Part shown: in pieces, positions 28,102-30,763 of the stretch
How the letters are laid out: each line of letters opens with the position of its first letter
Numbering within the stretch: position 1 is the stretch's first letter
IMG/VR virus record: IMGVR_UViG_3300025781_000032
Coordinates: 1-34,096 of that record
From: a virus
DNA length: 34,096 nucleotides
Direction: 5' to 3' (one strand)
Program-made: the position numbers and the translations under genes
The notes under the pieces: generated by a model
The model's input: the letters and a program-made list of their open reading frames with translations, nothing else
What the model was told of the DNA's origin: nothing
The model's database searches: none

Positions 28102-28120
28102 TGTGTTTCTCCTTGAAATA

Positions 28121-28139
28121 GTACACCTGCTTGGTGTAC
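28121..28139 (-). promoter_or_regulatory. Inverted repeat in phoH leader (operator or hairpin)
   Basis: GTACACC and GGTGTAC, perfect 7-bp arms separated by TGCTT, lie about 20 bases upstream of the phoH ATG. They can form a stem in the mRNA leader or serve as a binding site for a dimeric repressor. Confidence 0.5.
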
Positions 28140-28203
28140 AAAGATATTTAAATTCCAGCGGTATTTTGTAATACGTCGTGTTTATATTTCTAAATCGAGC
28201 ATA

Positions 28204-28232
28204 AGTATTAAACTGTCACCACTATTTTTCAA
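28204..28232 (-). promoter_or_regulatory. Possible sigma70-type promoter for phoH
   Basis: On the - strand: TTGAAA (28227-28232), 17-base spacer, AATACT (28204-28209). Two mismatches per hexamer at most; weaker than the other promoters. The leader to phoH would be about 95 bases and contain the inverted repeat. Confidence 0.4.
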
Positions 28233-28254
28233 TCATGTTTGGCATAGCAGTAGT

Positions 28255-28262
28255 GATAAATA
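28255..28262 (+). promoter_or_regulatory. Late-type promoter before gene at 28271
   Basis: GATAAATA, seven of eight to the T4 late consensus. The predicted start at 28268 is 3 bases before the ATG, so the message would be nearly leaderless. Confidence 0.5.
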
Positions 28263-28270
28263 ATTACACT

Positions 28271-28813
28271 ATGACCGCTAACATAAGAGATCTACTAAAT
28301 AACACCAAAGACATCTTCATGACCGACAGCGCAGTTTCGACTCTGCTGGATTTTGAACGTGTTTTAGACGAACTGGACCTGTACGCATTTGCCCACTGGA
28401 AACAGGGCGAACTAGTAGAAGGCCCAGTATACGAAAAGTACTTTGTCAAGTGCACATTTATGTGGCCCTACAAGAAAATGCCCGATCCCAAGGGCGCTGC
28501 ACGTTTAAGCGAATATGACTGCGATGTTGCGTTCAAACAAGACTTCTTTGAACATCCAGCAAAAGTAAAAACTCCCAAAGACTACAAATCAGGAACCAAG
28601 TTTCCCAAAACAGTTAAGAGCCCGGTATGGTTGGTCACTATTGTAATGCCCAAGAAACTGATGTCTGATATCGAGCAGGGTGCACTAGAATTAGAAAGCG
28701 GCACCGTGGACATGGAAGAAATTGATACTGCATACGAAACCGGAGCCGACAACGACTCAATGAATCAAGGAGTAGAAGGTGGACAACAACCCGAACAACA
28801 AACAGCTGCATAA
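28271..28813 (+). CDS. Conserved T4-like phage protein (180 aa), unknown function
   Basis: 180 residues from the ATG at 28271; an upstream in-frame ATG at 28235 lies before the late-type promoter and is rejected. Notable segments: MTANIRDLLNNTKDIFMTDS, TLLDFERVLDELDLYAFAHW, YEKYFVKCTFMWPYKKMPDP and SPVWLVTIVMPKKLMSDIEQ. The pattern matches, from memory, a protein conserved in T4-like cyanophages and pelagiphages and encoded among virion genes. The C-terminal tail is Gln/Gly-rich. It overlaps the next gene by 35 bases. Confidence 0.75.
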   Translation: MTANIRDLLNNTKDIFMTDSAVSTLLDFERVLDELDLYAFAHWKQGELVEGPVYEKYFVKCTFMWPYKKMPDPKGAARLSEYDCDVAFKQDFFEHPAKVKTPKDYKSGTKFPKTVKSPVWLVTIVMPKKLMSDIEQGALELESGTVDMEEIDTAYETGADNDSMNQGVEGGQQPEQQTAA

Positions 28814-29354
28814 TCTATTTGAAGGCCTGGAGTCAGGCGATCTAACTCGTTTGATTCATCCCGAACTGCACATAGACGAATTCAAAAGCAAACTGGGCGA
28901 TGATCGTGATGTGATCACGATCAGTTTCAAGTTAGGCGAAAAAGAACCTGCTAATGATCTTGTGGCCTTTATCGAAAAAGGCTACACCTGGGTATTTGAT
29001 GCTGACGTGAGTTCAGGCGAAATGGATGATGGCAGCTACATTGTGTTTGTGGAACTGGATCGTGACAGTAAAGCACCCGAACATATCATGGATCTCATGA
29101 CCGATCTCATGAACTTGACTGAACAAGATCTAAGCGATTGGCGTGTGCGTTACTTTAAATCTAGACAAGAGAAACCATTCAGTGAGGAAGCACTGAAAGA
29201 ATTGATTCCCCTGAGTCCCGACGAGTACGATCGTCTTTACGGTGATGCAGATTTAACTTATCTTAAAACTGCTGCCGGCATCAAGGTAGATAAAAAAGCC
29301 TCCAAAAACGAGTTTACAGAATCCTTACGCAATCTAGCCGGAATTGTGCGTTAA
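28779..29354 (+). CDS. Conserved T4-like phage protein (191 aa, GTG start)
   Basis: 191 residues, start GTG at 28779 with AAGGAG 6 bases upstream, overlapping the previous gene by 35 bases. Segments: NKQLHNLFEGLESGDLTRLI, HPELHIDEFKSKLGDD, DVITISFKLGEKEPANDLVAF, EKGYTWVFDADVSSGEM, EEALKELIPLSPDEYDRLYG. These recall a second protein adjacent to the 28271-type gene in related T4-like phages, again as I remember, of unknown function. The strong and long overlap indicates coupling and a joint role. 29355-29385 is a short AT-rich stretch before the next promoter. Confidence 0.75.
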   Translation: MDNNPNNKQLHNLFEGLESGDLTRLIHPELHIDEFKSKLGDDRDVITISFKLGEKEPANDLVAFIEKGYTWVFDADVSSGEMDDGSYIVFVELDRDSKAPEHIMDLMTDLMNLTEQDLSDWRVRYFKSRQEKPFSEEALKELIPLSPDEYDRLYGDADLTYLKTAAGIKVDKKASKNEFTESLRNLAGIVR

Positions 29355-29385
29355 AAAGTCTGTAACATTTTCTTCAGCTGAATTT

Positions 29386-29393
29386 GCTAAATA
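29386..29393 (+). promoter_or_regulatory. Late-type promoter of the endolysin gene
   Basis: GCTAAATA, six of eight to the T4 late consensus. The predicted start is about 29399, which lies inside the 5' arm of the hairpin at 29391-29417. So late transcripts would lack most of that arm. Confidence 0.55.
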
Positions 29394-29417
29394 GTTGTAT
29401 CAAGGAGATACAACTAT
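29391..29417 (+). promoter_or_regulatory. Perfect 11-bp hairpin masking the endolysin start
   Basis: ATAGTTGTATC (29391-29401) and GATACAACTAT (29407-29417) are exact reverse complements. The loop AAGGA plus the first stem base G forms the ribosome-binding site, and the AU of the start codon AUG (29416-29418) is inside the stem. Transcripts reading through from upstream would fold and block initiation, while those begun at the late promoter would not. Confidence 0.8.
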
Positions 29418-30039
29418 GGCATTCGAATTCGATTTTACCGCAAACCACGTACACCAATTACTGCAAGGCAACCCTCATGCAGAAAGCTGGTACAGTGCCT
29501 TATGCGACGAATTACCCAAATACCAAATCACAACCCCGGCACGTGTGGCCATGTTCATGGCACAGACCGGACACGAGAGCGGAAACTACACTGCTCTTAA
29601 AGAAAACTTGAACTATCAAGCACATGCACTCAGTAGCATATGGCCCAAGCGTTTTCCGCCTGATGTTGCTACACAATATGCACACAATCAAGAAGCCATT
29701 GCCAATAGAGCCTACTGTGATAGAATGGGCAACGGGTCAGAAGAAAGCGGAGATGGCTGGAAGTTTCATGGACGTGGCTTAATACAACTTACCGGACGTA
29801 GCCTATACGAAGCATTTGCCCGAGAAATTGGTAAAGAACTAGATGAATGTGTGGACTATTGCGAAACACCCGACGGTGCTGTGGAATCGGCCTGTTTCTT
29901 TTGGGAACATCATGGCTTAAACGCCATCAGCGATGCTGGCGATATTGTGAAAGCCACCAAAGTGATCAACGGTGGTACCCTGGGCATAGATGATCGTACT
30001 GCACGTTATAAACATGCATTGCAAATATTTGGTGCATAA
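29416..30039 (+). CDS. GH19 endolysin (chitinase-like muramidase/lysozyme)
   Basis: 207 residues, glycoside hydrolase family 19 endolysin that cleaves the glycan strands of peptidoglycan. Catalytic Glu54 is in MAQTGHESGNY. The conserved NRAYCDRMGNG and DGWKFHGRGLIQLTGRSLY motifs are present, followed by the family's C-terminal helices (FWEHHGLNAISDAGDI, VINGG). No signal peptide or SAR helix is visible, so release needs a holin. Start ATG at 29416 has AAGGAG upstream, held in the hairpin at 29391-29417; a longer frame from 29395 would start inside the hairpin arm and is rejected. The next gene overlaps by one base. Confidence 0.93.
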   Translation: MAFEFDFTANHVHQLLQGNPHAESWYSALCDELPKYQITTPARVAMFMAQTGHESGNYTALKENLNYQAHALSSIWPKRFPPDVATQYAHNQEAIANRAYCDRMGNGSEESGDGWKFHGRGLIQLTGRSLYEAFAREIGKELDECVDYCETPDGAVESACFFWEHHGLNAISDAGDIVKATKVINGGTLGIDDRTARYKHALQIFGA

Positions 30040-30494
30040 TGTTTGAATTTATCATTCAGCATATCCTAAACACACTGCCTGTTTGGTTTTGGCCAGCAGT
30101 GGCCGGAGCAGGTGTGTTGCTATATGCTCTTGCTGGCGTTTTGACACGGTTTCCGGGACTGAAGGTTTACGGATGGTTAATCAAGCCCGTGGGCCTAGTG
30201 ATATTTGTTGTGGGCGTGTTTATGTTTGGTGGTGCCGGTGTCACTGCTATATGGCAAGAACAAGTCCGGCAGGCACAAGCCCGGGTAGATGCAGCTGTGG
30301 TGGCCAGCAAAGCAGCCAATGATAAACTAACACAAGTTCGTCGACAGAAAAATCAGGTGATAGTACAACGTCAGGTTGTTATACATGAACGCATAGTAAA
30401 AGATGCTGCCAAAATGGATGCCACCTGTAGGGTTGATCCTGTGGCCATTCAAGACCTAAACGATGCTGCCATCAATCCCGAGGCCAAGAAATGA
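30039..30494 (+). CDS. Membrane protein with coiled coil, likely inner-membrane spanin/holin-like
   Basis: 151 residues. Two hydrophobic segments, about 14-35 (PVWFWPAVAGAGVLLYALAG) and 48-68 (PVGLVIFVVGVFMFGGAGV), precede a long charged helix (EQVRQAQARVDAAVVASKAAN... QKNQVIVQRQ). A membrane anchor followed by a coiled coil that spans the periplasm is the plan of an i-spanin (Rz). The lipoprotein gene with 4-base overlap would be its o-spanin. The second hydrophobic segment is unusual for Rz, so a holin or holin-spanin hybrid is possible. TAATG overlap with the endolysin. Confidence 0.72.
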   Translation: MFEFIIQHILNTLPVWFWPAVAGAGVLLYALAGVLTRFPGLKVYGWLIKPVGLVIFVVGVFMFGGAGVTAIWQEQVRQAQARVDAAVVASKAANDKLTQVRRQKNQVIVQRQVVIHERIVKDAAKMDATCRVDPVAIQDLNDAAINPEAKK

Positions 30495-30763
30495 AATACC
30501 TATTGCCCGTTTTATTGTTAGTGGGGTGCAGTAGCACTAGACCTCCTGTGGTGGTAAGTGCACCATGGCCCGATGTTCCAGTATCAATGCAGGAATCATG
30601 TCCGGATCTATTGACTGTTGACGCCAAGACAGACAAATTGAGTGATGTGGTTGATACAGTCAGCAAGAATTACACTCAATACTACCTGTGTGCTGGCAAG
30701 ATCGACGACTGGAACAACTGGTATAACACACAAAAACGAATATACGAAAGCACTAGAAAATGA
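30491..30763 (+). CDS. Outer-membrane lipoprotein, o-spanin-like (90 aa)
   Basis: 90 residues. A signal peptide MKYLLPVLLLVGC ends in a lipobox (L-V-G-Cys13), and the residue after Cys is Ser, which targets the outer membrane. The mature part starts with proline-rich STRPPVVVSAPWPDVPVS, as in Rz1-type o-spanins. A helical C-terminal segment (LSDVVDTVSKNYTQYYLCAG) follows. Paired with the upstream coiled-coil membrane protein, it would bridge the periplasm and fuse outer and inner membranes at lysis. ATGA overlap on both sides. Confidence 0.75.
   Translation: MKYLLPVLLLVGCSSTRPPVVVSAPWPDVPVSMQESCPDLLTVDAKTDKLSDVVDTVSKNYTQYYLCAGKIDDWNNWYNTQKRIYESTRK

Follow-up and report, generated by a model that had tools for sequence, protein, structure and literature searches.

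Why does the start codon of a phage endolysin lie within a perfect hairpin whose 5' arm overlaps a late-type promoter? The window analyzed here is the whole of a 34,096-nt fragment from an uncultured relative of phage T4 (record IMGVR_UViG_3300025781_000032, positions 1 to 34,096). The features around the locus are as follows.

28255-28262, + strand: GATAAATA, late-type promoter preceding the two structural genes, likely source of read-through RNA, with an ATG 8 nt on
28271-28813, + strand: virion structural protein gene, phrog_12928 (start taken after the promoter, at 28271; the ORF listing runs from the in-frame ATG at 28235)
28779-29354, + strand: virion structural protein gene, phrog_13138, directly upstream of the endolysin
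29386-29393, + strand: GCTAAATA, late-type promoter ahead of the lysis cassette, an Aeh1-like variant of T4 TATAAATA
29391-29401, + strand: 5' arm ATAGTTGTATC, sharing three bases with the 3' end of the promoter box
29399, + strand: predicted late +1, by T4 spacing
29402-29407, + strand: Shine-Dalgarno sequence (SD), AAGGAG
29407-29417, + strand: 3' arm GATACAACTAT, containing the AT of the start codon
29416-30039, + strand: GH19 endolysin gene, 207 aa (PF00182, E 1.2e-6; relatives)
30039-30494, + strand: Rz-like i-spanin gene (phrog_312, E 1.1e-4)
30491-30763, + strand: Rz1/LysC-like o-spanin lipoprotein gene (phrog_456, E 3.2e-7; PF23793, E 3e-5, under the curated cut-off)

A perfect hairpin over the endolysin start

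The 11-bp perfect hairpin at the endolysin start is beyond chance. Its arms (29391-29401 and 29407-29417) pair at 11 of 11 positions around the loop AAGGA (29402-29406), so that the original prediction of a mismatch-free pairing was correct to the base. Both the A and the T of the start codon (ATG, 29416-29418) are paired, as had also been proposed, while the description of the ribosome-binding site as the loop holds for AAGGA but not for the final G of the SD, which lies within the stem because the SD extends to 29407. The 61-nt stretch containing the hairpin folds at -19.0 kcal/mol, against -8.0 +/- 2.2 kcal/mol in shuffled sequences (z -4.9), and 0 of 200 shuffles folded as well. No other perfect inverted repeat in the window has arms of at least 11 and a loop of 3-8, and any such repeat appeared in 3 of 100 whole-window dinucleotide shuffles, a count that does not yet require it to sit over an SD and start codon. 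Perfect repeats with 10-bp arms occur at 28901-28923 and 306-329 (TGATCGTGAT.. and AAAAAGGGCC..), where 0.12 repeats of at least 10 bp are expected by chance. A reading of the endolysin hairpin as a terminator was rejected, as the stem is A+T-rich and a T run is absent.

The downstream genes form a lysis cassette in which we recognized no separate holin, and no signal peptide is evident in the endolysin sequence. The Rz-like protein carries two hydrophobic segments ahead of its coil, which is unusual in an i-spanin and possibly a holin-like addition.

A late-type promoter and the predicted opening of the start site

Is the element at the foot of the hairpin a plausible late promoter? T4 late boxes read TATAAATA at -13 to -6, and late promoters of the Aeromonas phage Aeh1 read CTAAATA (PMC1524935), with a/gC at -13/-12 (PMC2988020). 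The window's GCTAAATA matches the Aeh1 variant exactly, which bears out the proposed resemblance of 29386-29393 to a T4 late promoter. Irrespective of position, the TATAAATA-like motif is no commoner in the window than chance predicts (39 observed versus 39.9 expected); the enrichment of the late box is positional, ahead of SD-ATG. In each of eight contigs (the window and the contigs of seven relatives), TAAATA is the hexamer that most often precedes SD-ATG, with 12-28% of its occurrences so placed—above all ten comparison hexamers in every contig—and spacings to the start that peak near 20-23 nt. This positional conservation extends to the endolysin itself: TAAATA lies 20-30 nt ahead of its start in all nine relatives with at least 71% identity (L001-L009) and also precedes it in some of lower identity (L011, L213, L266, and L364). 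All three long-contig relatives encode gp55 (phrog_234, E 2.8e-24 to 2.2e-22) and the T4-type capsid protein gp23 and are thus T4-related. Within the 34-kb window fragment itself gp55 was not found, and the Pfam sliding-clamp model matched nothing, controls included, and is thus uninformative.

With the box at -13 to -6, as in T4, the predicted +1 falls at 29399, within the 5' arm, in line with the original prediction. From this placement we infer both where late transcription would begin and what it would do to the start site. Read-through RNA arriving from upstream would carry both arms, so that the SD and start codon would be closed, while RNA from the GCTAAATA promoter would lack 8 of the 11 bases of the 5' arm and its start would consequently be open. 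Computed folding separates the two RNAs clearly: opening the SD-to-AUG region costs 16.0 kcal/mol in read-through RNA versus 1.8 kcal/mol in RNA from 29399, and sequences shuffled upstream average 6.4 kcal/mol (p at its floor of 0.005). Neither a temperature of 20 C nor the inclusion of 200 nt of upstream sequence alters this result. We consider it probable that the endolysin start is under a translation switch that depends on transcript origin. A start open only in RNA from its own promoter would mean that endolysin is made only once a gp55-type late RNA polymerase fires there, and a structural-gene transcript running into the endolysin gene would yield no endolysin.

The predicted effect depends on where the late RNA begins. 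The opening cost is 7.3 kcal/mol for an assumed start at 29395, 5.7 at 29397, 2.3 at 29398, and 1.8 at 29399; were transcription to begin at 29395 or earlier, most of the repression would persist, and the T4-spaced 29399 lies just inside the open range. If transcription instead began upstream of 29391, the hairpin would be kept in late mRNA and might act as a thermometer, a protein operator, or an mRNA stabilizer. The 5-nt loop holding the SD could be a contact for a protein or the ribosome, and a start merely 4-5 nt before the predicted one would leave most of the stem. We nonetheless regard retention as quite improbable, given that T4 spacing places the +1 within the 5' arm and that the strong hairpins of sister phages have in common a 5' arm upstream of the predicted start, and not their sequence or place.

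Which RNA would be silenced?

The original prediction held that early RNA would be silent and late RNA translatable. The second part agrees with the predicted loss of most start-site structure in late RNA; the identification of the silenced RNA as early is not supported. The nearest promoter upstream on the same strand (28255-28262), and the only recognizable one, is late-type and serves two structural genes, so the RNA most likely to enter the endolysin gene is itself late. No + strand terminator-like site lies in 28105-29416. Nor is there an evident source of early RNA in the window: phoH, upstream of the structural-gene promoter, lies on the opposite strand, and no promoter signal exceeds chance, sigma-70-like sites being at chance level.

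The gene order of structural pair, endolysin, and spanins is common to the window and the sister contigs L003 and L008, the three among ten loci in which the identity of the upstream structural genes was tested. At nine of the ten loci a gene of 180-198 aa is preceded by a late-type promoter, about 1.2 or 2.0 kb upstream of the endolysin; in L213 no such element was seen. These arrangements bear on the strict T4 gene e reading, by which the hairpin silences early or middle read-through and so prevents lysozyme synthesis before the late period. In its favor, published work on T4 assigns the hairpin this role (PMC3014915), and L003 and L008 have more same-strand genes, of unassigned timing, further upstream. 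Set against this, structural genes stand directly upstream of the endolysin in all three phages, late-type promoters precede the upstream genes at nearly every locus, and the window offers only opposite-strand phoH before its structural genes; we judge the strict reading unlikely. It is more likely that the hairpin also shields the lysis cassette from late RNA of the structural genes. The proposed switch would sort RNAs by their start position, with early versus late as one case only.

The upstream promoter has a peculiarity of its own. A late-type box lies 5-8 nt before the phrog_12928-type ATG in the window (28255-28273) and in L003, L004, L006, L008, and L266. With so short a gap, T4 spacing gives a predicted late mRNA leader of 0-3 bases, without an SD, which suggests a leaderless late mRNA for this gene kept in several lineages.

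Sister phages, other late genes, and T4

How far is the hairpin conserved? The window's exact hairpin recurs only in the near-identical contigs L001 and L002, and base-by-base covariation is therefore absent. Two sister phages have an equivalent structure on the same endolysin gene, built from other sequences: CCCTTGATA-gctaaatactt-TATCAAGGG in L003 (opening cost 17.5 versus 1.3 kcal/mol) and AACTCCTTTG-gtaaatactgtat-CAAAGGAGTT in L008 (17.7 versus 2.5 kcal/mol). Their promoter sits in the loop, with the anti-SD 5' arm upstream of it, as in T4 gene e. These predicted switches are as strong as the window's, with other sequences and geometry, and support a function. Elsewhere the signal fades: in L009 the pairing to upstream sequence is borderline (p 0.02); L004, L006, and L266 show a weak hairpin signal; and L007, L011, L213, and L364 show none at the endolysin start. 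Combined over eight related loci, excluding the window, pairing with the upstream segment gives a Fisher p of 4e-5 by one measure and 2e-6 by another, although most loci are individually weak and the combined value is somewhat generous because their lineages are related.

The arrangement is confined to a subset of endolysin relatives, as most of the wider set (L204-L282) have the gene directly after another, without a late box. A BLASTN search with the lysis region found no match among named phages. The endolysin's nearest named relative, MW202675, shares 50% identity with it and sits among different genes. The lysis region of one relative matches named phages solely at a short ClpA-like stretch.

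Might the repeat have arisen by chance, or be an operator at the DNA level that leaves translation untouched? In favor is the lack of a strong hairpin in several relatives that share the promoter. We find this reading highly improbable, since so perfect a repeat is rare window-wide, L003 and L008 carry equivalent structures on the same gene, and start-site hairpins are associated with TAAATA genes in general. In the eight contigs, start-site hairpins with z>3 were found at 10 of 117 TAAATA-SD-ATG genes versus 4 of 255 without the box (p 0.002), and a fall in opening cost of >7 kcal/mol at 12 of 117 versus 4 of 255 (p 0.0003); the contigs share ancestry, so these gene counts are not fully independent.

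The TAAATA genes with hairpins include three endolysins, an HNH/NUMOD3 homing endonuclease, an SprT-like protease, a gp13-like neck protein, and fibre-like proteins. The protease gene (L298:2847-3326:-) has a start-site hairpin of -24 kcal/mol and the neck protein gene (L305:4430-5383:-, on a 354-kb contig) one of -20 kcal/mol; in both, TAAATA lies within the loop or close to it. The homing endonuclease gene (L313:11801-12595:-) has a TAAATACTC...GGAGTATTTA hairpin with a geometry like that of T4 I-TevI. Scans for near motifs yielded one further example of the window's own geometry, TAAATACTC-tatcaat-GGAGTATT, at the start of a small unrelated gene (54-55 aa, MAKIIEDV-type) in L340, L353, and, as a variant, L346. 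There is some possibility, short of an even chance in our estimate, that promoter-cut hairpins are a recurring insulator between late genes, rebuilt several times on the same endolysin gene. The genes so separated would be those for lysis, the SprT-like protease, neck, fibre, and homing endonuclease, and the separation would not be only between early and late.

How does the locus compare with the known T4 systems? The combination of a late promoter and a hairpin switch is established in T4 for e, soc, 49, and I-TevI, where it represses translation of e 100-fold (PMC3014915), and is predicted in close T4 relatives too (PMC3014915, PMC2988022). In Aeh1, start-site structure is not apparent at gene e (PMC3014915), whereas mobE does have it (PMC2988022). 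Applied to T4, our measure recovers segB, I-TevI, I-TevII, e, 49, and 26; the published case soc was not detected. The window resembles gene e in its logic: a lysis enzyme gene whose SD and AUG are closed in RNA initiated upstream and whose late promoter is placed so as to leave the 5' strand of the helix out of late RNA (a prediction in the window), with similar energies by the same measure (14.3 versus 1.4-3.9 kcal/mol in T4). The claim of the same arrangement as gene e does not extend to geometry. The T4 e promoter lies in the loop, like those of L003 and L008, while the window's lies at the foot of the 5' arm, and its upstream genes are structural, with a late-type promoter. By its sequence layout the window is closer to T4 49 and I-TevI; in these, as in I-TevII and segB (PMC3014915, PMC2988022), the promoter overlaps the 5' arm and the 3' arm is located in the SD-AUG interval or extends to the AUG. 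Those four genes encode nucleases of unrelated sequence, whereas the window's gene encodes a lysis enzyme.

The signature is simple and computable and could serve to find such switches in uncultured T4-related phages; it also prompts the hypothesis that their role is to shield late genes against late read-through. In searches of the open-access literature we found no such switch described on GH19 endolysins. The mechanism is known from T4, and what would be new is a predicted switch on an endolysin unrelated in sequence to T4 e (BLASTP E 45), as originally noted. That different sequences and geometries occur suggests that the switch can be rebuilt, and the comparison with T4 suggests that an origin-reading switch on a lysis gene outlives replacement of the enzyme itself—a GH24 lysozyme in T4, a GH19 endolysin here.
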